Shown here piece by piece: positions 11,830-57,248 of a stretch of DNA of 64,000 nt. A model generated the notes under the pieces. That model was not told the DNA's origin, searched no databases, and saw nothing but the letters and a program-made list of their open reading frames with translations. The DNA is from Bacteroidia bacterium (GTDB lineage: Bacteria > Bacteroidota > Bacteroidia > Flavobacteriales_D > Sanyastnellaceae): NCBI GenBank assembly GCA_030427925.1, contig JAUICJ010000015.1:1-64000 (forward strand). Reading direction: 5' to 3'. The position numbers were made by a program, and so were the translations under genes. Each line of letters begins with the position of its first letter. Positions within the stretch are counted from its first letter, which is position 1.

Positions 11830-11892
11830 GCCGTTGCGATCGATGTTGGGCTCAGTCGCGCAAGCGGAAGGGTTCAACAAGAACCGTTCGTG

Positions 11893-11993
11893 GCTCATCT
11901 TTCCCACGGTTAGGTGGGGAGGATGTGGCACCCGGCCCATTCCCGGGTTGCCAAGACTTCACAGGGCCTGTCCCTCCGTCTTTCGCGATAAGC
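11893..11993 (-). ncRNA. SAM-I (S-box) riboswitch aptamer upstream of metH
   Basis: Read on the minus strand, the region contains the S-box core: CTTATC, GGAGGGA, GGCCC, TGTGAAG, GGCAACC and GGTGCCA in the right order. The helices close: P1 GCTTATC (11993-11987) with GATGAGC (11899-11893), P2 AAGAC with GTCTT, P3 CCCGG with CCGGG, and P4 CCCAC with GTGGG. It would sense S-adenosylmethionine and switch off the methionine operon. No terminator with a U-run follows, so control is probably at translation. An in-frame ATG lies within the 3' strand of P1. Confidence 0.92.
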
Positions 11994-11997
11994 ATTC

Positions 11998-25875: not shown

Positions 25876-26484
25876 ATGAACCCATCCATGTCCCGCTTTG
25901 AAACGTTGATCGATGGCCCCGATGGCCGAGCGCGCCTGTGGTCCGATGCGGTGGCGAGCGCCGAAGCGTTGATGGCCGAACTCGAGCGCGAAGTGGATTG
26001 GCAGACCGAGTTCATTCGGATGTTCGGGAAGACGTATGAAGTGCCGCGCAAAGTGGCCTGGCACGGTGATGCGGGGGCGGTGTACCGCTACGCCGGAGTC
26101 ACCCACGAACCCGCGCCGTGGTTTCCTGCACTCGAACGGTTGCGCGATCTCGTTTCTGAGCGGGCGGCCGCCCCGTTCAATTCCGTCCTGCTCAACCGGT
26201 ACCGGGATGGGAAGGACCACATGGGCTGGCACCGCGACAACGAGCGGGAGCTCGGAGAGCAACCGGTCATTGCTTCGGTTTCGCTCGGTGTGGAACGCCG
26301 ATTCGAATTCCGGCACGTGACCACCAAGGAACGCGTGTCCTGCCGCCTGCCCGCCGGATCGGTCCTCGTCATGGACGGACCGCTCCAGGCGATGTGGCAG
26401 CACCGCTTGCCGCGTGAACCCAAGGTCACGGAGCCGCGCATCAACCTGACGTTTCGGTACGTGCTCAGTCGCAGAACGAGCTGA
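25876..26484 (+). CDS. AlkB-like 2-oxoglutarate/Fe(II) dioxygenase
   Basis: AlkB-family enzymes remove alkyl groups from nucleic-acid bases. The 202-residue protein has the substrate loop YGVTHEP-like segment (YAGVTHEPAPW), the iron-binding HxD in MGWHRDNE, the distal histidine in MWQHRLPRE and the 2-oxoglutarate-binding RINLTFR. A second ATG at 25888 is an alternative start. The last 20 bases overlap the convergent haloperoxidase gene. The AlkB (ALKBH2-like) subgroup cannot be fixed by eye. Confidence 0.93.
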   Translation: MNPSMSRFETLIDGPDGRARLWSDAVASAEALMAELEREVDWQTEFIRMFGKTYEVPRKVAWHGDAGAVYRYAGVTHEPAPWFPALERLRDLVSERAAAPFNSVLLNRYRDGKDHMGWHRDNERELGEQPVIASVSLGVERRFEFRHVTTKERVSCRLPAGSVLVMDGPLQAMWQHRLPREPKVTEPRINLTFRYVLSRRTS

Positions 26485-28618
26485 AGAGCGTCAGGAAATC
26501 GAGGACGTCCGTTGAACCGATCAGGGCGCTGTTGTCCAGGTCATACGGCCCCGTCCAAGCGTTCCCATAAGCGCCGAGCAGCAGCAACAGGTCATCGAGC
26601 GCCCGCATGCCATCGCCGTTGAAGTCGCCCTCGCAGTCCGCGCTGGGCAGGAACCCGTCGCCGCATTCCATGGCCCATTGTGGGAAGACGTACGATTCGG
26701 CTTTGCAGAATGCCGCTTCGGCCACTTCGATTCCGATTTGGCGTCCACGCCCATCGTCCATCGGCGGGTGAATGCCCCCCCACATCCTCGACAAGGCACT
26801 TTCGTTCGCCGCATCCTGGTAGGTCGCCCACTGCAAATCGAAGCTCTGCGAAGGCCCCTCTTCGAAAACGAGGAACTCGTTCTGCTCGATGTGCCAGGTG
26901 CCAAGCCCTCCCGGGAAGTAGTTGCTGCCCGTCAACTGCGTCAAGATCTCGGCAGCGGCTCGCGAGAACGTGGAATGCCCGCTCACGTAGCCGGCGAACG
27001 GTGGGGTCACAAAGGACGGGCGCTGGTAGGGCCACCAGTATTCGGCGAGGATCCAGCCCACGCCCGCTTCGTCGATGAGGGGAACCTCCACGTAGTCGGG
27101 GCCGCGCCACGTGTACAGCTTGATCTTGCCGATGTGTTCGCCGTTCAGGCCTTGAAGCGGGTCGCCCGCCTCGACCACTTCGATGTAGCCCGGGATGAGC
27201 GGAATGCCTTTGGGCGAGTAGTTGTCGAGGGACGGGTCGGTGCTTTGGCCTTGCCCGGCCATGTAGCGAATGGCGGACACTGGGCGGATGTAATCGTAGA
27301 ATCCCTTGACGCTCCACGTGGCCACCGCGCTGTCGTGCATCGCGCCTGCGAGCGTGAGGTAGGCTTTTACGGTGTATTCCAAATCCGGGATCACCGGCCC
27401 CTGTCCGCGCCACCGGTGATCGAAATCCGGGTAGTCCATGATTTCGTTCAACAGCGTGAACCAGTGTCCGGGGGGTGTTTCCGAATCCGGACCATCCGCC
27501 CAAAACTCCGCAATGGCCCGTGCGTAGTCGCCTCGGGGCACCATATTCGGTTCATACGGCTCGCCGGTCACGGGATTCATCGCGTGCCCAGGCGTCGTGT
27601 GCCCTCCTTCGAAGAATTCGTAAAACGTGGGGAAATCGGCCAGATCGGTCACGAAGCTCCCGTCCGTCCCCACTCCGTTGGGTGAAATGTCCCACATCAC
27701 CCCATCCGAAGGATCGAGGTGCGATTGCCAAACCGAAACCATCGAAAAGTTCCACTTGTACGGGTCGTCGATTCCCAAGCCGTTCACGGTGTCGATGTAC
27801 GCCGGCGCACCGGGGTCCTTCCAGACATGGAACGTGCACCCGTCCCGCTCCACGAATTCCAAATCGCTGGAATCCAATGCAAACGGCGTTACGCGGCCCC
27901 ATTCTGGCCCCACGAATGCGGGAACTTCGGTGGAGGCGTTGCCGCTTTGGTCAATGAACAACGTCAATTCGATGGCTTGCCAGTGGTCCGGATCGATGAT
28001 GTCGGGGTTGCCCGGCAGTTCCGGCTTGATGTTCGGGTTCACGGCTTCGTAGCAGATGGGCGCAAACCCATTCGCCTCGTTGGAGCCGTCGCTCATCCCC
28101 ATGGCAATGATGTGCTCGGCGATGTAGTTGCCCAAGGCCGCCGGTCCGTCCGTCGCGTAGTCGGTGGAGGTGAAGCTCGAAGGGTAGCCGTAGGCAGCCA
28201 TTTGGTCCTCGATGTTGGCCATGGTCAAATCCCCGTCCGGCGAATCCGCAAACCGGTGGATCATGATGCGGTAAACCGCGTAGCTCATGGCCTCCTCCTG
28301 AGCGGCCTGAACGCCTTCGGGGGTGTCCGGGATCGCGAGCTGGGCGGGGTCGAAAGGGCAGGTGTAGTTGCCGAAGGTTTGGCCTAGGAAAAACGGAACC
28401 GCGGGCCCATCGTCGTAGGCGACCCACGCATCGTACATCGCGATGGAAGTGTGCAGCAAGTTCCGCGCATGAACCGTCGGCCGTGCGAAATCATTCCGAA
28501 TGCCTTCTAGCACCTGCTCGTTCCACGTGTGCGCCACGTTCATCTCTTGCGTGAGGCCCATTGCAGGCAGGGAGCAGGCCAAAGCGAGGCCCGCAGCAAA
28601 TCGCGTCAAAAAGTTCAT
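26465..28618 (-). CDS. Secreted vanadium-dependent haloperoxidase-like PAP2 enzyme with dockerin-like C terminus
   Basis: The 717-residue protein has a signal peptide and a long all-helical PAP2-superfamily domain. The vanadate or phosphate pocket is complete: K-x6-RP at Lys438, Arg445 and Pro446, SGH with His548, and S-R-x5-H with Arg611 and His617. Enzymes of this family oxidise halides with peroxide or act as phosphatases; which applies here is not decidable by eye. The last 60 residues contain two EF-hand-like segments (GDFNGDGMRALDDLLLLLG, then DLDNSA...STDVLDFLTLF) instead of a T9SS tail. A TAAATTCG box (minus, 28645-28638) precedes it. Confidence 0.9.
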   Translation of the reverse strand: MNFLTRFAAGLALACSLPAMGLTQEMNVAHTWNEQVLEGIRNDFARPTVHARNLLHTSIAMYDAWVAYDDGPAVPFFLGQTFGNYTCPFDPAQLAIPDTPEGVQAAQEEAMSYAVYRIMIHRFADSPDGDLTMANIEDQMAAYGYPSSFTSTDYATDGPAALGNYIAEHIIAMGMSDGSNEANGFAPICYEAVNPNIKPELPGNPDIIDPDHWQAIELTLFIDQSGNASTEVPAFVGPEWGRVTPFALDSSDLEFVERDGCTFHVWKDPGAPAYIDTVNGLGIDDPYKWNFSMVSVWQSHLDPSDGVMWDISPNGVGTDGSFVTDLADFPTFYEFFEGGHTTPGHAMNPVTGEPYEPNMVPRGDYARAIAEFWADGPDSETPPGHWFTLLNEIMDYPDFDHRWRGQGPVIPDLEYTVKAYLTLAGAMHDSAVATWSVKGFYDYIRPVSAIRYMAGQGQSTDPSLDNYSPKGIPLIPGYIEVVEAGDPLQGLNGEHIGKIKLYTWRGPDYVEVPLIDEAGVGWILAEYWWPYQRPSFVTPPFAGYVSGHSTFSRAAAEILTQLTGSNYFPGGLGTWHIEQNEFLVFEEGPSQSFDLQWATYQDAANESALSRMWGGIHPPMDDGRGRQIGIEVAEAAFCKAESYVFPQWAMECGDGFLPSADCEGDFNGDGMRALDDLLLLLGAYGNAWTGPYDLDNSALIGSTDVLDFLTLFSSFCD

Positions 28619-47693: not shown

Positions 47694-50081
47694 ATGAAAG
47701 AAGCCGCTTCCCCCCACCCGGAACTTCGGGAACAGGACTTCCGCGAGCTGTTGCTGGCGGATTACCGTTTGGCCTGCATCAGCCGAGAAACCTCGCTGCT
47801 GGGCCGGAAAGAGGTGCTCACCGGCAAGGCCAAATTCGGCATCTTCGGCGACGGAAAGGAACTGGCGCAAATTGCCCTTGCGAAGGTCATGGAGCCCGGC
47901 GATTGGCGCTCCGGCTACTACCGCGACCAAACCCTGCTGATGGCGCTCGACCTCATCAGCGTGAAGCAATACTTTGCCGCCCTGTATGCGGACACGGACC
48001 TCGCGCACGAACCGTCGAGCCGCGGTCGCCAAATGGGCGGCCACTTCGCCACGCGTTTCCTCGATGACGAAGGCCGCTGGCTGGACCAAACGCAACAGGT
48101 CAACGTCTCTGCCGACATCAGCCCGACCGCCGGCCAAATGCCCCGCCTGCTCGGCCTCGCTCAGGCGTCCAAGCTGTACAAGCGCCTCCCCGAGGCGGCC
48201 GCTGCAAAGGCGGGCTTCACGCGGGGTGGGCGGGAAATCGCGGTGGGCACCATTGGCGACGCTTCAACATCGGAGGGGCCGTTCTGGGAAACCATGAACG
48301 CCGCGTGCGTGTTGGGCGTTCCGCTGCTCATGAACGTATGGGATGACGGCTACGGCATCAGCGTTCCGAAGTCGTACCAAACGACGAAATCGTCCATCTC
48401 CGACGCGCTCAGCGGGATGGAGATCAGCGACGGCACGAACGGCATGTACATCTACCGCGTGAAGGGGTGGGATTACCCGGCCTTGGTGGCGACGTACGAG
48501 GAGGCGGCCGCGCGGTGCCGCGAGGAGCAGGTGCCCGTGCTCGTGCACGTGGAGGAGATGACGCAGCCGCAGGGCCACAGCACCTCGGGTTCGCACGAGC
48601 GGTACAAGTCGGCCGAGCGGATGGCGTGGGCGAAGGAGTACGACTGCATTCGGCAGTTTGGGCGGTTCATTGCGCTGGAGGGGGCGGCGACGGAGGCGGA
48701 GTTGGAGGACATTGCGAAGGACGCGAAGCAGGCCGTTCGGGCGGAGCAGAAGGCGGCGTGGGCGGCGTTCCAGGCGCCGATTTTGGCGGAGCGGGACGAG
48801 GTGGTGGGCCAAATCCAAGCCCTGCTCGGCCCCGACGCGGCGACCGATTTGGCCGCCGACCCGGCGCCGATCCGCGCCCAGCTGCACGCCTCGGCCCGGC
48901 AGGCCCTCGCGCAGACGGCGGGGACGCACTCGCCGGCTCGAGCGGCTTTGGCGGCGTGGGTGAAGCGCGAGACGGAGGCGAACCGGGAGCGGTACAGCTC
49001 GGAACTGTACAGCACCGGGTACGACAGCGCGCTCGAAGTCGCTCCGGTGGCGGCGCGTTATGACGACGATGCACCCCTCGTGGACGGGCGGCAAGTCCTG
49101 CAGCGCAACTTCGAGGTGATCTTCGAACGGCGGCCTGAGGTCCTGACTTTCGGGGAGGACACGGGCGGCATCGGTGGGGTCAACCAGGTGATGGAGGGCA
49201 TGCAGGCCCGCTTCGGCGCGGATCGCGTCACGGATACGGGCATTCGGGAGTGCACGATCGCGGGGCAGGGCATCGGTTTGGCCATGCGCGGCTTCCGGCC
49301 CATCGCGGAAATCCAGTACCTCGACTACATCTACTACGCGCTCCAAATCCTGCGGGACGACGCGGCCACCGTCCGCTACCGCAGCGCCGGCGGCCAAAAA
49401 GCGCCCGTCATCATCCGCACCCGCGGCCACCGGCTCGAAGGCATTTGGCACAGTGGCTCTCCGATGGGGGCGCTGCTCGGCTCGCTCCGCGGCATGCACA
49501 TTTGCGTCCCCCGCAACATGACCCAAGCGGCCGGGATGTACAACACGCTCCTCGAAGCCGAAGAGCCCGCCCTGGTCATCGAATGCCTGAACGGCTACCG
49601 CAGCAAAGAGCGGATGCCCGCGAACCCCGGCGATTACCGCGTCGCCCTTGGCATCCCCGAGGTCGTCCGCACCGGAAAGGACCTCACGCTGGTCAGCTAC
49701 GGCTCGACCTTCAACCTCGCGGCCCGCGCCGCGGAGCGGCTCGCTGAGCACGGCGCCGAAGTCGAGCTCGTCGACCTCCAAACGCTCCTCCCGTTCGACC
49801 TCAACGCCACCTGCCTGAGCAGCCTCGCCAAGACGAACCGCCTGCTCATCGTCGACGAGGACGTCCCCGGCGGGGCTTCCGCCTACATCCTCGACGGCAT
49901 CATGAAGCAAGGAGCGTTCAAGCATTTGGACAGCGAGCCCACCGTCCTCAGCGCCCAGCCCCACCTTCCGCCCTACGGTTCAGACGGCGACTACTTCAGC
50001 AAGCCGAGCGTCGAAGACATTTACGAAACGGCCTGGCGCATGCTGCACGAAGCGGAGCCCCAGCGCTTTCCCGCCCTGTGA
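47694..50081 (+). CDS. Fused E1 alpha/beta subunit of a 2-oxoacid dehydrogenase complex, probably branched-chain type
   Basis: The 795-residue thiamine diphosphate enzyme joins both E1 chains in one protein. The alpha part (about residues 20-380) has FGDGKELAQIALAKVM, YRDQTLLMAL and the cofactor motif GDASTSEGPFWETMNAA. The beta part (about 460-795) has FGEDTGGIGGVNQ, EIQYLDYIYYA and VDLQTLLPFD. Such fusions are common in Bacteroidota and usually serve branched-chain 2-oxoacids. The E3 gene lpdA is nearby; no E2 is in view. It is followed by a coupled S4-domain gene. Confidence 0.9.
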   Translation: MKEAASPHPELREQDFRELLLADYRLACISRETSLLGRKEVLTGKAKFGIFGDGKELAQIALAKVMEPGDWRSGYYRDQTLLMALDLISVKQYFAALYADTDLAHEPSSRGRQMGGHFATRFLDDEGRWLDQTQQVNVSADISPTAGQMPRLLGLAQASKLYKRLPEAAAAKAGFTRGGREIAVGTIGDASTSEGPFWETMNAACVLGVPLLMNVWDDGYGISVPKSYQTTKSSISDALSGMEISDGTNGMYIYRVKGWDYPALVATYEEAAARCREEQVPVLVHVEEMTQPQGHSTSGSHERYKSAERMAWAKEYDCIRQFGRFIALEGAATEAELEDIAKDAKQAVRAEQKAAWAAFQAPILAERDEVVGQIQALLGPDAATDLAADPAPIRAQLHASARQALAQTAGTHSPARAALAAWVKRETEANRERYSSELYSTGYDSALEVAPVAARYDDDAPLVDGRQVLQRNFEVIFERRPEVLTFGEDTGGIGGVNQVMEGMQARFGADRVTDTGIRECTIAGQGIGLAMRGFRPIAEIQYLDYIYYALQILRDDAATVRYRSAGGQKAPVIIRTRGHRLEGIWHSGSPMGALLGSLRGMHICVPRNMTQAAGMYNTLLEAEEPALVIECLNGYRSKERMPANPGDYRVALGIPEVVRTGKDLTLVSYGSTFNLAARAAERLAEHGAEVELVDLQTLLPFDLNATCLSSLAKTNRLLIVDEDVPGGASAYILDGIMKQGAFKHLDSEPTVLSAQPHLPPYGSDGDYFSKPSVEDIYETAWRMLHEAEPQRFPAL

Positions 50082-50305: not shown

Positions 50306-50379
50306 AAAATACAAGCCCGAATCGGCCTGCGTTTGGTCATTTTTCGTGTTATTTGGGAGTTGGAATCAACCCCATTTGC

Positions 50380-53229
50380 ATGAGAACTCTACTGTTGGCC
50401 CTCGGCCTGGTGCTCGCTTGGAGCGCCTCGGCCCAAGTGACGTTGCGCGGACGCGTGTTGGATGCGGACCTCGGGGATCCGGTGTTTTCCGCGAACGTGG
50501 TGGTGAAGGGCACAACGACCGGGGTGACCACGGATTTCGATGGCCAGTTCCTGATCCAAGTGCCGTCGTTGCCCACGACCTTGCAGGTGAGTTTCATCGG
50601 GTACATGACCCAAGAGTTGGTGGTGAATGAGCCTTCGAATCGCTTGGAAATCAAGTTGCCCTCGGACCAAATCCTCATCGACGCCGCCGAGGTGGTGGGC
50701 TCGCGCATTTCCGAAAAACAAAAGCAGGCGCCGTTGACGGTCGAGACGATGGATGTTTTGGCCATCCGCGAAGCGCCTTCAGGCAACTTCTACGAGGGCC
50801 TCGGCAACCTGAAAGGCGTGGACGTGACCAGTGCGAGCTTGGGCTTCAAGATCATCAACACGCGCGGATTCAATTCGACGTCGCCCGTGCGCTCGCTGCA
50901 ACTCATCGACGGGGTGGACAACCAGAGCCCCGGCCTGAATTTCTCGCTGGGCAATTTCCTCGGGGCGTCGGATTTGGACGTGATGAGCGTGGACATCGTT
51001 GCTGGCGCGTCGTCGGCTTTTTACGGTCCGGGCGCGTTCAACGGTGTGGTGAGCATGCGGACCAAATCCCCGTTCCGCTTCCCCGGCGTTTCCTTCTCCC
51101 TCAAGGCCGGCGAGCGCGAACTCAACGAATTCGCCCTGCGCTACGCGGACTACACCACGAACGAAGACGGCGATCCGGTGCTGGGATTCAAATTGAATGC
51201 GTTTCGGTTCACCGCGCAGGATTGGGAAGCCACGAACTACAATCCCGTGGACGCCTCGGGAGTCGACCCCTCGAATGCAGGCCGCTTCGATGCCGTGAAC
51301 ATCTATGGCGACGAGTACCGCCCGGTGTTCGACTACTCCGGGGACAACTCGCAGAACGCCCGGGGGCTGGGCAGCGTGTTCCGGACGGGTTATCGTGAAT
51401 CGGATTTGGTGGATTACGGGACCGAGAACACGAAGTTGGGGGCGACGGTGACGCTGCGGCTGCAGCCTGACCGGACGTACGAATCGCCGGAGCTGGAGTA
51501 CGGGTTCAGTTCGGGGTTTGGCACGACGGTTTATCAAGGCGACAACCGCTTCAGCCTGCGCGACATCGAGTTTTATCAGCACAAGTTGGAGGTGCGCCAA
51601 ACCGACCAATGGTTCGTCCGCGCCTACCGCACGAGCGAAGACGCGGGAAACAGCTACGATCCCTACGCCACGGCGCTCCGGTTGCAGGAGGAGACCCGGA
51701 GCGACTACCAGTGGTCAAAGGTCTACTACCGGTATTGGGTGGACAGCATCGTGCCGGGCATCAACCAAACCTGGCCGGCGTTGGAGCAGGTCGGGGTGGA
51801 CCCAGACTTCGGTTTCCCCATCTTCGGCTATCCCGATGGGGCCATCGATGATTGGTATGCGACCAATGCGGACAGTTTGGCGTTGTGGCACGGTCAGGTG
51901 CAAGATTGGACCAACAACGGTTACGCCGGGCTCAACGACGTCGCCTCCAATCCCCTCGGGCACTTGCAACCCGGTACGCCGGAATTCGAGGAGGCGTTCA
52001 ATCGCTTGATTCAAGGCAAGAACAACGAAGAAGAGCAGGGGACGCGGTTCTTTGACCAGTCGAGTTTGGTCCACGTCCACGGAGAGTACACGTTCAAGCC
52101 TGAATTCGTGGAAGAATGGCGCGTGGGAGCCAATTTCCGTCGCTACTCGCCCAACAGCGACGGCACCATTTTCTCGGACACCGCCGGTCGGGTCATCACG
52201 AACCAGGAAGTCGGGATGTACACAGGGTTGAAGCGCCGCTTTTTGGAGGACAAACTCATCGCGACCGCGACCATTCGAGCGGACAAGAACCAAAACTTCA
52301 ACTGGGTCGTCTCACCCGCGGCGTCCTTGGTCTACTCCCCGACGGAATCGGATTACTTGCGGTTGTCGTTCAGTTCCGCACTGCGCAACCCGACGCTCGC
52401 GGACCAGTACCTCTTCCTCGATGTGGGGCCTGCAACCCTCGTCGGGAACTTGGATGGGGCGACGGATTTGGTGACGCTTTCGAGCTTCGTGGACTACCGC
52501 AACAGCATCAGCTCGGCCAATGGGCTTCCGTTTGGCAATTTGGACACGCTCGATTACTTCGACATCGCACCGTTGCGGCCGGAGCAGGTGCGCACGTTCG
52601 AAGTGGGGTACCGAACGACCCTGGGCGAGCGGCTGTACGTCGACGCAGGGTATTATTTCAGCCGGTACAACCACTTCATCGGGTACAACATCGGATTGGA
52701 TGTGTTGTTCGAAAATCCGGATTTTGACCAGTCCATCACCGGGGTGGATGTCTACCGCTATGCCGCGAATTCCCTGAACGAGGTCCTCACGCAAGGCTTC
52801 AGCATCGGGGTGAACACCTACATCGGTGATCACTACATGCTCGCGGGAAACTACAGCTGGAATCAGCTCCTGAAAAGTGCAGAAGACGACCCCATCATCC
52901 CGGCATTCAACACCCCGGAGCACAAGTACAACCTTTCCTTCAGTGGCCGGGATTTGAGTTTCCGAGATTGGGGCGTTTGGGGATTCGGAGTCAACTACAA
53001 ATGGGTGCAAGGGTTCTTGTTTGAAGGCTCGCCGCAGTTCACGGGCTTCGTGCCCACATACGATTTGCTGGATGCCCAGGTGAACCTTCGGGTGGACAAA
53101 TGGAACACCACCTTCAAATTCGGCGGATCCAACCTGCTTGAAAACATCCACATCGAAACGTACGGAGGACCCTATGTGGGGCGCATGGCTTACGCGAGCC
53201 TGATTTTCGATTTGAATCACCGGGAATGA
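50380..53229 (+). CDS. TonB-dependent receptor with CarboxypepD_reg-like domain
   Basis: The 949-residue outer-membrane protein has a signal peptide (ending ASAQ), a carboxypeptidase-regulatory-like domain (about residues 23-110; FSANVVVKGTTTGVTTDFDG), a plug domain (about 110-230; NFYEGLGNLKGVDV, SLQLIDGVDNQSPG) and a beta-barrel ending in an aromatic-rich strand. No SusD partner follows, so it is more like a siderophore, vitamin or peptide receptor than a Sus pair. The transported compound is not deducible. Confidence 0.93.
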   Translation: MRTLLLALGLVLAWSASAQVTLRGRVLDADLGDPVFSANVVVKGTTTGVTTDFDGQFLIQVPSLPTTLQVSFIGYMTQELVVNEPSNRLEIKLPSDQILIDAAEVVGSRISEKQKQAPLTVETMDVLAIREAPSGNFYEGLGNLKGVDVTSASLGFKIINTRGFNSTSPVRSLQLIDGVDNQSPGLNFSLGNFLGASDLDVMSVDIVAGASSAFYGPGAFNGVVSMRTKSPFRFPGVSFSLKAGERELNEFALRYADYTTNEDGDPVLGFKLNAFRFTAQDWEATNYNPVDASGVDPSNAGRFDAVNIYGDEYRPVFDYSGDNSQNARGLGSVFRTGYRESDLVDYGTENTKLGATVTLRLQPDRTYESPELEYGFSSGFGTTVYQGDNRFSLRDIEFYQHKLEVRQTDQWFVRAYRTSEDAGNSYDPYATALRLQEETRSDYQWSKVYYRYWVDSIVPGINQTWPALEQVGVDPDFGFPIFGYPDGAIDDWYATNADSLALWHGQVQDWTNNGYAGLNDVASNPLGHLQPGTPEFEEAFNRLIQGKNNEEEQGTRFFDQSSLVHVHGEYTFKPEFVEEWRVGANFRRYSPNSDGTIFSDTAGRVITNQEVGMYTGLKRRFLEDKLIATATIRADKNQNFNWVVSPAASLVYSPTESDYLRLSFSSALRNPTLADQYLFLDVGPATLVGNLDGATDLVTLSSFVDYRNSISSANGLPFGNLDTLDYFDIAPLRPEQVRTFEVGYRTTLGERLYVDAGYYFSRYNHFIGYNIGLDVLFENPDFDQSITGVDVYRYAANSLNEVLTQGFSIGVNTYIGDHYMLAGNYSWNQLLKSAEDDPIIPAFNTPEHKYNLSFSGRDLSFRDWGVWGFGVNYKWVQGFLFEGSPQFTGFVPTYDLLDAQVNLRVDKWNTTFKFGGSNLLENIHIETYGGPYVGRMAYASLIFDLNHRE

Positions 53230-53345: not shown

Positions 53346-56300
53346 ATGAATAGGTTCTTACTCGCCGCCGCAGCCTTCACCTTCGGGTCGTCCGCGGTAT
53401 TTGCGCAAACGCGCTACCTCGATCCCATCTTCGATGAAGTGAATGTCACTTCTGACGTTGTCTATGGGTCCAACATCACCGTTTTACCGGCCATGCAAGG
53501 CGCGCCTCCCATGGAGCAGCCGTTGCTGTTGGACATCTATGAGCCCGCGGGGGACACGGAGACGGATCGGCCCGTTTTGTTGTATTTCCATACGGGCAAC
53601 TTCTTGCCCCCCTTCATCAACGGCAGCCCGCTCGGGACGAAATCGGACAACACCGCCGTTGAGATTTGCACGCGCTATGCCCAAAAGGGATACGTGGTGG
53701 CTTCGGTGGATTACCGACTCGGTTGGAACCCGCTCGCAGGAACCCAAGAGGAGCGGTCCATTCAGCTCATTCAAGCGGCTTACCGCGGCGTGCAAGACAG
53801 CCGCACGGCCGTGCGTTTTTTCCGCAAGACGGAAGCAGAAGACGGTGATCCATACGGCATCGACGGCTCCAAAATCGGCATGATCGGAGAAGGTACGGGA
53901 GGCTACATCACCTTGGCTTCTGCGACGATTTCGGACTACAACGACATCATTTTGGATGACGGCGGTGCCCCCATTACGAAGTTTTGGTACAACAGTGGTG
54001 CGAATTACATCCCGATGGTCATCGAGACCATCCACGGCAATCCGGACGCGACGATCAACACCTTCGCTCCCGATGGCGTGACCCAGCTGTGCGTAGCGAA
54101 CCACGTGGAGTACAGTTCAGACTTCAGTTTTCAAATGAACATGGGCGGTGCGCTCGGTGATTTGAATTGGTTGGATGAAGGGGACATGCCGATGGTTTCC
54201 TTCCAGACGCCCTACGATCCGTTCGCTCCTTACGAAACCTCGGTCCTCATCGTTCCGACGACGCAAGAACCGGTAATTGAAGTTTCGGGTGCATACGATG
54301 TTCACCAAGAGATCAACGGCTACGCCACGAACAACAACGAGGTGTTCGCAGCCTTCGGGTTTGACGACCCGGCAGCTCCGGCGAACATGGGCTGGGATGG
54401 TTTGTTCCCGGTGTTGAACCAGCTCGACGCCAACGGCAATCCGACCGAGCCGTTTGACAGCGCTCCTTGGCAGTGGTGGGATTACGCTGCCGCTGCGGCC
54501 ATCGACCCGACGGTCGCTGCGACGCAATTGAGCTTGAATCCGACCATGAGCGAGTCAGAAGCCATGGGATGGATTGACCAAATCGACGATTACAACACCC
54601 CTCGCATGGGCGTGGCCATGGGCTTGCTCAACGAGAATTCGTTCGAGGACCAAACCCGCTACATGGATGAAGTCTTCGATGAGGTCGTTGTGACTTCGGG
54701 CGTGGTATACGGACAGAACATTTCGGTGTTGCCTGCTTTGCAAGGTGCTCCTCCTGCTCCGCAGAACCTCTTGATGGACATCTACGAGCCGGCAGGCGAT
54801 ACCGAAACTGAGCGTCCCCTGATTCTGTACTTCCACACCGGTAACTTCTTGCCTCAGTTCTTGAACGGCAGCCCGCTCGGAACCCGCACCGACAGCGCTG
54901 CAGTCGAGATCTGCTCGCGGTTCGCTCGGATGGGTTACGTCGTCGCTTCAGTGGATTATCGTTTGGGCTGGAATCCGCTGGCTTCGACTCAGCAGGAGCG
55001 CTCCATTCAATTGATCCAAGCGGCTTACCGCGGGGTTCAGGACAGCCGGACGGCAGTGCGTTACTTCCGCATGACCGCTGCTGAGGAAGGCAACCCATGG
55101 GGCATTGACGAATCGCGCATCGCGATGTTCGGTGAAGGAACGGGAGGCTACATCACCTTGGCATCGGCCACCATTGAGGACTACAACGACATCATCCTGG
55201 ATGACATGGGGTCTCCGATCACCAAGTTTTGGTACGACAATGGCGGCAACTTCATTCCGATGGTCATCGAGACCATTCACGGAAATCCCGACGCGACTAC
55301 GGACACGTACGCTCCAGACGGCGTGACGCAGTTGTGCATGGCGAATCACGTGGGCTACAGCTCGGAGTTCTCCTTCCAAATGAACATGGGCGGTGCGCTC
55401 GGTGATTTGAACTGGCTCGATGAGGGCGACATTCCGATGGTTTCGTTCCAAACCCCGCACGACCCGTTTGCTCCTTATGAGACCTCAGTGCTCGTGGTGC
55501 CGACGACGAACGAACCGGTGATTGAAGTTTCGGGTGCCCATGACATCCACGAAGAAATCAACGGTTACGCCACGAACAACAACGCGGTATTTGCGGAAAT
55601 TGGCCTTCCGGACCCTGCATCGGACAACAACAACGGATGGGATGGTTTGTACCCCGTTTTCAACAACTACGTAGGCGGCGTGCCTACGGAGCCTTTTGAC
55701 AGCTCGCCTTGGCAGTGGTGGGATTACGAGACCATTGCAGCCGTGGATGCGGAAATGGCTTCAACGCAGTTGACTTTGAACCCCACGATGGGTCCGGACG
55801 AAGCGAACTTCTGGATTGACATCATCCAGGACTACACAGCACCGCGTTTGGCGGCGTCCTGGGAGCTGGTCGAACTCGGCCCCGGTTGCACCGATGATGC
55901 GGCCTGCAACTACAACTCCCTCGCCACCACAGACGACGGTTCTTGTGAATACGCGGAAGAAGGATTTGACTGCGACGGGAACGCCACGGCCATCCCCGGT
56001 TGCACGGATCCGATTGCCTGCAACTACGACGGGGCTGCAAACGAAAACGATGGTTCTTGCGATTACTTGGACACGACGCTCCCAACTGGCGCGGATGCTC
56101 CTTGGTTGGTCGGTTTGACCTTGACGGGCACGCCGTATGAGTCGTTGGGTGCAGCATGCGAATCAGCAGGCACGGTGAACCCGAACATCGCGGTGAACGG
56201 GGTGATCATGGGCGACGGCACCGGGGGCAACCTCGGGTTGAGCAACGTTTCGGATCCCACGGGCTTGCTCGGTGAGTTGGTTGCAGTGGCGAGCGTAACG

Positions 56301-57248
56301 GCATTCGGCATTTGCGGCGATAACATTGCGGTCAGCATTGCAGGCCAAATGGTGTTCCTCGTGGAGCAAGACGGCTACTGGATTTCACCCATCGCGGTCA
56401 GCAACGGCCAGTACCTCTGGGTCGCACCGATGGGCAATTTCGCCATCGGTTGCGCCGATCCGGGCGCTTGCAACTTCACGTCACCTTGCGACCTGAGCTT
56501 GGCATGCGCTTATCCCGATGCGGATGAAGACGGGGTATTAGATTGCAATGAAATCGTTGGATGCCAGGACCAAGCGGCGGACAACTACAACGCGAACGCT
56601 ACGGATCCAGGCAACTGCCTGTACAACGGTTGCACGGACATGGACGCCCTGAACTTCGATGAAGGGGCGAACGTGGACGATGGTTCTTGCACGTACTTGG
56701 TGGCCTTCCGGGTCAACATGTCTCAAGAAGCAGTCAGCCCGAACGGCGTGCACTTGGCGGGCGGTTTCCAAGGTTGGGATCCCAGCACGTTGGCCATGGC
56801 ACCCATTGGATTTGGCATCTACGAGGTGCAGGTCCAGCTCCAGGCGGGAACGTATGAGTACAAGTACGTCAATGGAAACGAGTGGGGCGCGGACGAATCC
56901 GTTTCGCCGTGTGGCAATGGCGGCAACCGCGTGATCGAAGTTCCTTCCGTTTTGACGACGGTCGGTCCCTGCTTCGGCAGCTGCGATCCGTGCGTGGGCT
57001 GCTCCAACCCCATGTTCGTGGAGTACAATCCGTTCTTCGGTGGCAACGACGCCGATTGCGTGACGCCCATCGTGATGGGTTGCACGTACGAGAACGCGAC
57101 GAACTACAACGCACAAGCGAACACCGATGATGGTTCGTGTGTCATCGAGGCCGGCAGCGCTTGCCCGGGCGACCTGAACAACGATGGAGCAGTGGGAACC
57201 AACGACTTGCTGGCCTTCTTGGCAAGCTTCGGTCTCGTCTGCGACTGA
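53346..57248 (+). CDS. Secreted multidomain protein with two tandem alpha/beta-hydrolase-like domains, Cys-rich repeats, a glycan-binding-like domain and a dockerin-like tail
   Basis: The 1300-residue protein has a signal peptide, two closely similar hydrolase-like domains (about residues 23-435 and 438-845), and about six short Cys-rich repeats of the GCTD-x-A-x-NYN-x-DDGSC type (from residue 847). Then come a beta-sandwich like an E-set or glycogen-binding domain (about 1120-1200; FRVNMSQEAVSPNGVHLAGG) and a last GDLNNDGAVGTNDLLAFLA segment. In both hydrolase domains the nucleophile elbow reads GEGTGG instead of GESAGG (Gly183 and Gly598), so neither should be a normal serine esterase. Function is unknown. 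Confidence 0.88.
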   Translation: MNRFLLAAAAFTFGSSAVFAQTRYLDPIFDEVNVTSDVVYGSNITVLPAMQGAPPMEQPLLLDIYEPAGDTETDRPVLLYFHTGNFLPPFINGSPLGTKSDNTAVEICTRYAQKGYVVASVDYRLGWNPLAGTQEERSIQLIQAAYRGVQDSRTAVRFFRKTEAEDGDPYGIDGSKIGMIGEGTGGYITLASATISDYNDIILDDGGAPITKFWYNSGANYIPMVIETIHGNPDATINTFAPDGVTQLCVANHVEYSSDFSFQMNMGGALGDLNWLDEGDMPMVSFQTPYDPFAPYETSVLIVPTTQEPVIEVSGAYDVHQEINGYATNNNEVFAAFGFDDPAAPANMGWDGLFPVLNQLDANGNPTEPFDSAPWQWWDYAAAAAIDPTVAATQLSLNPTMSESEAMGWIDQIDDYNTPRMGVAMGLLNENSFEDQTRYMDEVFDEVVVTSGVVYGQNISVLPALQGAPPAPQNLLMDIYEPAGDTETERPLILYFHTGNFLPQFLNGSPLGTRTDSAAVEICSRFARMGYVVASVDYRLGWNPLASTQQERSIQLIQAAYRGVQDSRTAVRYFRMTAAEEGNPWGIDESRIAMFGEGTGGYITLASATIEDYNDIILDDMGSPITKFWYDNGGNFIPMVIETIHGNPDATTDTYAPDGVTQLCMANHVGYSSEFSFQMNMGGALGDLNWLDEGDIPMVSFQTPHDPFAPYETSVLVVPTTNEPVIEVSGAHDIHEEINGYATNNNAVFAEIGLPDPASDNNNGWDGLYPVFNNYVGGVPTEPFDSSPWQWWDYETIAAVDAEMASTQLTLNPTMGPDEANFWIDIIQDYTAPRLAASWELVELGPGCTDDAACNYNSLATTDDGSCEYAEEGFDCDGNATAIPGCTDPIACNYDGAANENDGSCDYLDTTLPTGADAPWLVGLTLTGTPYESLGAACESAGTVNPNIAVNGVIMGDGTGGNLGLSNVSDPTGLLGELVAVASVTAFGICGDNIAVSIAGQMVFLVEQDGYWISPIAVSNGQYLWVAPMGNFAIGCADPGACNFTSPCDLSLACAYPDADEDGVLDCNEIVGCQDQAADNYNANATDPGNCLYNGCTDMDALNFDEGANVDDGSCTYLVAFRVNMSQEAVSPNGVHLAGGFQGWDPSTLAMAPIGFGIYEVQVQLQAGTYEYKYVNGNEWGADESVSPCGNGGNRVIEVPSVLTTVGPCFGSCDPCVGCSNPMFVEYNPFFGGNDADCVTPIVMGCTYENATNYNAQANTDDGSCVIEAGSACPGDLNNDGAVGTNDLLAFLASFGLVCD
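53412..55860 (+). repeat. Internal tandem duplication of a 1245-base hydrolase-like unit
   Basis: The segment beginning at 53412 recurs beginning at 54657. The two copies encode about 410 residues each, align without large gaps and are visibly more alike in protein than in DNA. Shared blocks include DIYEPAGDTET, YFHTGNFLP, VVASVDYRLGWNPLA and FSFQMNMGGALGDLNWLDEG. This is an old in-frame duplication within one gene, kept under protein-level constraint. Confidence 0.9.

Follow-up and report, generated by a model that had tools for sequence, protein, structure and literature searches.

In the window, that is, the whole 64,000-nucleotide stretch analysed here (Bacteroidia bacterium, Sanyastnellaceae; GenBank assembly GCA_030427925.1, contig JAUICJ010000015.1, positions 1 to 64,000 of the forward strand), a gene for a TonB-dependent receptor (TBDT) is followed on the same strand by a gene for a secreted protein of 1300 amino acids. 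The latter contains two alpha/beta-hydrolase-fold domains in which glycine occupies the place of the nucleophilic serine, and is referred to here as a pseudo-esterase. The features of the two genes are as follows.

50353-53229 (+), TBDT, proposed partner, 116 bases upstream of the pseudo-esterase (Pfam; linkage)
53346-57248 (+), secreted tandem pseudo-esterase, 1300 amino acids (open reading frame and translation)
53346-53405 (+), signal peptide, residues 1-20, probable cleavage between SAVFA and QTRYLDP (sequence)
53406-54629 (+), alpha/beta-hydrolase-fold domain 1, residues 21-428 (Pfam BD-FAE, 39.2 bits; relatives)
53892-53894 (+), codon of Gly183, nucleophile place of domain 1 (domain alignment)
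54216-54218 (+), codon of Asp291, retained acid residue of domain 1 (aligned rows)
54651-55871 (+), alpha/beta-hydrolase-fold domain 2, residues 436-842, tandem copy restarting with QTRY (Pfam BD-FAE, 38.8 bits)
55137-55139 (+), codon of Gly598, nucleophile place of domain 2 (domain alignment)
55461-55463 (+), codon of Asp706, retained acid residue of domain 2 (domain alignment)
55884-57150 (+), Cys-rich repeats of the type GCTDxxACNYNxxAxxDDGSC, broken by the X25-like domain (sequence)
56760-56942 (+), X25/AMPK1-CBM-like glycan-binding-type domain, residues 1139-1199 (Pfam PF22058, X25_BaPul_like)
57162-57245 (+), C-terminal tail CPGDLNNDGAVGTNDLLAFLASFGLVCD, replacing the type IX tail of other orthologues (sequence; genome matches)

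Domain architecture of the pseudo-esterase

The mature N-terminus, QTRY, begins with glutamine in the manner of the Bacteroidetes Q-rule, by which Gln is N-terminal after signal peptide cleavage (PMC5837995, in extract), and inspection by eye finds no lipobox cysteine behind the signal peptide. The original prediction for this gene, made from the DNA letters and their open reading frames, was of tandem hydrolase-like domains, and two such domains, 76-77% identical to each other, are indeed present: each alone passes the Pfam BD-FAE cut-off of 26.8 bits, and both carry YFHTGNFLP (containing His82 or His497), VASVDYRLGWNP and the GEGTGG elbow. The glycan-binding-like domain of that prediction is likewise recognized by Pfam, with 27.4 bits in the whole protein and a cut-off of 27. 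Most orthologues consist of the hydrolase domain and a secretion tail, part of them with further domains, and the Cys-rich repeats and X25-like domain are confined to some close relatives of the window protein. These extras, taken in the original prediction to favour binding, therefore do not define the function.

Loss of the catalytic triad

Relatives were gathered from the window's own genome, 100 related genomes and named contigs, and 111 domains were aligned. The alignment holds 95 rows of a Gly group and 16 of a Ser type, and the elbow is readable in 94 of the 95, the exception being the cut-off copy L014. An ungapped elbow alignment with the own-genome paralogue L003 (GVSAGG) shows that Gly183 and Gly598 take the position of the nucleophile, as had been proposed for the GEGTGG elbow, and glycine stands there in all 94 readable Gly-type domains. 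Homologues with serine at this place, which the original prediction suggested looking for, are found as paralogues; all 16 in the alignment, L003 included, read G[VST]SAG[GSA].

The BD-FAE structure has Ser128, Asp237 and His269 (PMC8165983, in extract). Like BD-FAE and the HSL-like esterases (PF20434, PF07859), the Gly type has the hydrolase fold, the motifs of the N-terminal half and the acid Asp (Asp291, present in 95/95 Gly-group and 16/16 Ser-type rows). It differs from them in the glycine at the nucleophile place, in HTG for HGG, in a set of new invariant residues and in the absence of the His segment: the catalytic His column holds histidine in 16/16 paralogues and in 0/94 Gly-type rows, which have 89 gaps and five other residues. 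In the 94-row Gly-type alignment no serine or histidine is conserved well enough to substitute for the triad. The best-conserved Ser column is S120 (80/94), and the sole His column above 65% is His82 of the oxyanion region (90/94).

The Gly type has its own invariant or nearly invariant residues, without counterpart in the Ser type, namely Asn92, Asp101, Trp127, Asn128, Asn331, Asp341, Trp375, Trp377, Trp378 and Arg420. Because the loss of the triad is accompanied by these residues, the site looks retained and altered in the alignment, not decaying. The Gly-type domains are probably non-catalytic.

Age of the substitution and selection

In a phylogeny built from 139 domains (99 of the Gly type, 39 of the Ser type and one unlabelled; quick search, elbow columns included), a single branch with an SH-aLRT of 98 sets the Gly type apart, several rows being long-branched. 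The clade spans eight family-rank groups of Bacteroidota (f1, f2, f3, f4, f5, f7, f8 and f18), the membership of f7 resting on one long-branched row, and the tandem duplication arose inside f1. Judged from the tree, the Ser-to-Gly change is far older than the duplication, so that the serine loss, first described as a feature of the two copies, is a clade-wide state. Within the window's genus the two copies pair with each other, as they do in G010; other genera separate copy 1 from copy 2. This mixed pairing reflects either several duplications or homogenisation.

Substitution counting between the window and locus L005 gives dN/dS values of 0.039 for one copy and 0.060 for the other, and of 0.118 between the window's own two copies, with dS of 1.2-1.7 and thus partly saturated. 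By these counts the Gly-type domains are under purifying selection. Since an old, conserved clade with dN/dS of about 0.04-0.12 is fixed for both the Ser-to-Gly change and the missing His segment, the comparison supports selection for a non-catalytic job. To this extent the functional reading of the original prediction stands; what it missed was the main clue, the adjacent TBDT.

Linkage to the TBDT gene

The window TBDT matches the Pfam domains TonB_dep_Rec_b-barrel, CarbopepD_reg_2 (N-terminal, carboxypeptidase-regulatory-like) and Plug. At 107 loci with a hydrolase match, up to 600 bases upstream were examined for this TBDT in the same orientation. It is found at 72 of the 83 Gly-type loci that have at least 300 bases upstream, and additionally at L059, in an overlapping open frame; it is found at 0/16 Ser-type loci (15 distinct genes, L003 being the same as L004), a few of these loci having too little sequence for the 150-residue detection limit. 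In eight loci examined separately (L156-L163, from seven genomes typed by score and a second G055 locus), a GxGTGG elbow and a TBDT match occur together in 8/8. The pattern extends to a phylum sample of 395 genomes, 30 of them with a match at E<=1e-20, in which, with the own genome left out, the TBDT stands at 6/6 Gly-type loci (L107-L112; f1 and f18) versus 0/23 Ser-type loci (L113-L135).

Because the loci include near-identical genomes, the count was also made by genome. Among the 100 relatives, 76 have the Gly-type gene and 74 the TBDT (E<=1e-100), and in 68 of the 76 the TBDT gene is followed immediately, on the same strand, by the Gly-type gene, with fewer than 600 bases between the matches in 63 and about 1450 in five, in which the TBDT match is probably incomplete. 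Among the unlinked genomes, G005, G023 and G039 either carry the Gly-type gene close to the beginning of a contig or show a TBDT match that is truncated, and G052, G096 and G099 have no TBDT match at E<=1e-100, a TBDT piece lying upstream in G052 and G096. Both genes occur in 73 genomes, the TBDT only in one (G029, cut at a contig start), the Gly type only in three, and neither in 23. The pair is jointly absent from G013, G018 and G050 (f1) and from G083 (f8), groups that otherwise hold both, although some of these absences may come from incomplete assemblies. In the window's genome, 23 TBDT candidates were seen at a first look and eight were scored; the only one to pass 1e-100 is the adjacent one.

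In G099 (contig C3), broken pieces of the TBDT and the Gly-type gene lie side by side at L164, as if the pair decays together, and a second, interrupted Gly-type copy is found at L165.

The TBDT keeps its place immediately upstream in 21/21 wider neighbourhoods (20 and the window), and the outer neighbours vary. Upstream of the TBDT in the window (47694-50081) lies a gene for a fused alpha/beta E1 dehydrogenase, which recurs in this position and orientation in 11 of the 21; other neighbours are shared only within subgroups.

Export and C-terminal tails

Two sets of Gly-type relatives were scanned for the Pfam domain Por_Secre_tail, found in 7/8 and 2/2. Most orthologues scanned thus resemble type IX cargo with a T9SS type A sorting domain, from which the window protein differs in bearing another C-terminal tail. 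The type IX translocon gene SprA is present in its genome (1835.7 bits), which also gives 53 matches to Por_Secre_tail at E<=0.001.

In the window protein and its near relatives, the C-terminus is formed by a CPGDLNxDG...DLLxFL tail, a Cys-flanked, EF-hand/dockerin-like segment of 28 residues (CPxDLNxDGxVxTxDLLxFLxxFGxxC). The 35-residue end of the window protein matches 65 places in its own genome. In 20 further places from the top of the list (L168-L187), 19 reach a stop within about 30 residues of where the motif starts, two of these cases read by eye, and one is internal. Elsewhere in the window, another open reading frame carries two tandem weak matches to the motif (26468-26641, minus strand). 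Since orthologues swap the type IX tail for the CPGDLNxDG tail, the latter probably serves the same purpose, export or anchoring, and may represent a signal for it that has not been described. The window protein is presumably located at the surface.

Fold comparison

The structure prediction of one unit that had been proposed was only partly informative. Two AlphaFold models, built from shallow alignments of 23 and 25 rows, are usable in the N-terminal half, which contains the strand-elbow-helix element, and poor in the C-terminal half. In the second model, strand 152-161 is followed by helix 163-174 in normal nucleophile-elbow geometry, and Gly163 in domain numbering, which is Gly598 in the protein, sits at the elbow turn. 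Foldseek returned 408 matches at E<=0.001, and the 50 listed are all hydrolase-fold proteins, with a feruloyl esterase on top; VIA-align gave Z up to 15.0, only chains ranked by Foldseek being compared. When the PDB was searched with a profile, esterases and neuroligins were found, the GqGtGg of the profile standing opposite GSGAGA of neuroligin. Neuroligin 2wqz aligns with an E of 2.8e-06 and has glycine at the nucleophile place, a similarity of sequence that is local.

Leads to cargo and regulation

In 9/100 genomes (G061, G063, G072, G074, G075, G081, G087, G092 and G096), all in f2, f4 and f5, the pseudo-esterase gene is followed immediately, on the same strand, by a gene for MurQ (N-acetylmuramic acid 6-phosphate etherase), and four of the neighbourhood loci (L136, L137, L138 and L139) show this arrangement. 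MurQ is present in 91/100 genomes and, in the window's genome, elsewhere. The adjacency hints, as a lead within three family-rank groups only, at cell-wall sugars as cargo.

Rfam searches of the window and six related loci found no riboswitch near the TBDT. Away from it, the window holds a SAM riboswitch (RF00162, 77.1 bits, 11892-11994, minus strand) and a tRNA. A scan for sigma-70 consensus promoters found none, a consensus that is not expected to fit Bacteroidota.

A proposed capture partner for the TBDT

The same dead esterase standing beside one TBDT in dozens of related bacteria suggests that it probably captures cargo instead of cutting it. We propose, giving the proposal an even chance of being right, that the exported pseudo-esterase is the ligand-capturing partner, a lid or docking protein, of the TBDT encoded just upstream. 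On this proposal, an ancestral secreted BD-FAE-like esterase would have been duplicated, and one copy would have lost the nucleophile serine and the catalytic His segment and gained invariant aromatic and polar residues (Trp127, Asn128, Asn331, Asp341, Trp375, Trp377, Trp378, Arg420 and others). Its gene would then have become linked to the TBDT and been kept, and in the window's lineage the domain would have doubled again and binding-type repeats been added. An extracellular ligand would be bound by the dead domain, at or close to the former active site, and passed on to the TBDT. Neuroligin, a binding protein of hydrolase fold that aligns with glycine at the same place, fits this picture. 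Both the physical partnership and the capture of cargo are deduced from these patterns.

Several observations weigh against this proposal. The linkage is not absolute: the second Gly-type copies of five close genomes (L087-L091) have no TBDT match upstream, and in G032 and G051 the TBDT match is on another contig. Genes may also keep a conserved order by inheritance although their products do not interact. No type IX tail is recognized in the window protein at E<=1 (Pfam), the structural models are weak (mean pLDDT 48.1 and 51.3), and the window TBDT reaches only 125 bits against the SusC/RagA family TIGR04056, with a cut-off of 368.25 and the match covering the N-terminal part only.

Known transporter-partner systems may serve as working analogues of the pair without implying membership in their families. 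SusCD and RagAB share with it a TBDT that has a CarboxypepD-like domain and, directly downstream, a gene for an exported partner; here, the TBDT stays under the SusC cut-off, the partner has no lipobox, and no SusD domain is among its Pfam matches at E<=1. BtuG is a propeller and, like XusB, a lipoprotein, from which the pseudo-esterase differs in export tail and fold. The common ground with these two is a small-molecule TBDT of Bacteroidota teamed with a surface partner, namely BtuG, encoded beside its TBDT (PMC10404256, in extract), and XusB, used by the TBDT of XusAB (PMC13142918, in extract).

Alternatively, the dead domains could be free surface binders or adhesins that bind an extracellular glycan or protein, as neuroligins do, with the TBDT performing a separate step. 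Neuroligins are binding proteins, non-catalytic for want of the active-site serine (PMC8526735, in extract); they share with the Gly type the hydrolase fold, the glycine at the nucleophile place, an extracellular location and a binding job, but they are eukaryotic adhesion proteins with no TBDT, and the resemblance is local only. This similarity, the X25/CBM-like domain and Cys-rich repeats of the window protein, and the L087-L091 copies without an adjacent TBDT match all suit a free binder, but the strong linkage to one TBDT over many genera, and the absence of the extra binding modules from most sampled orthologues, make it unlikely.

A second alternative is catalysis by a changed mechanism, in which Thr/Ser184 or Thr83 with Asp291, or a metal, would act in the triad's stead. 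Asp291 is invariant, residue 83 is Thr in 89/94 and Ser in 3/94, and residue 184, beside the elbow glycine, is Thr or Ser in 92/94. The two natural exceptions, L080 (GQGAGG) and L073 (GFGAGG), have Ala184 and nevertheless a TBDT upstream, which argues against a shifted hydroxyl nucleophile. No Ser column exceeds that of S120, and the only conserved His is the one in the oxyanion region. For another serine serving as nucleophile in both domains, which would have contradicted the original prediction, these columns give no support, and we regard a changed mechanism as distinctly improbable.

It is very doubtful that the role of the TBDT is to assist secretion or anchoring of the pseudo-esterase and not to import cargo, a role that the TBDT Oar has for PopC in Myxococcus. 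PopC secretion requires a TBDT (PMC6434023, in extract), and the window TBDT bears the N-terminal carboxypeptidase-regulatory-like domain, but the orthologues have type IX tails of their own, so that export is provided for, and Oar is likened by description only. That unrelated genes were inherited side by side by accident is highly improbable: the E1 dehydrogenase gene does point to a wider conserved stretch, but the TBDT adjoins in all 21 neighbourhoods although outer neighbours change, the absences of the two genes coincide, and G099 holds broken pieces of both together.

Implications

Transporter-lid pairs are central to feeding in Bacteroidota, and the described ones considered here use surface lipoproteins. 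We put forward tentatively, and somewhat short of an even chance, that the proposed pair belongs to a previously unrecognised Bacteroidota class of TonB-dependent import, in which the lid is a dead alpha/beta-hydrolase, often exported by the type IX system, instead of a lipoprotein of the SusD, BtuG or XusB type, and derives from a secreted esterase that perhaps once acted on the same cargo. In the open-access library searched, mostly through the openings of abstracts, we found no description of a TBDT paired with an inactive hydrolase, and one may exist elsewhere. For annotation, BD-FAE-type matches with a GxG[TS]GG elbow beside a TBDT should not be named esterases. If the proposal is true, it would widen the set of lid folds, trace a route from enzyme to receptor, and provide a handle on a cargo taken up by many Flavobacteriales.

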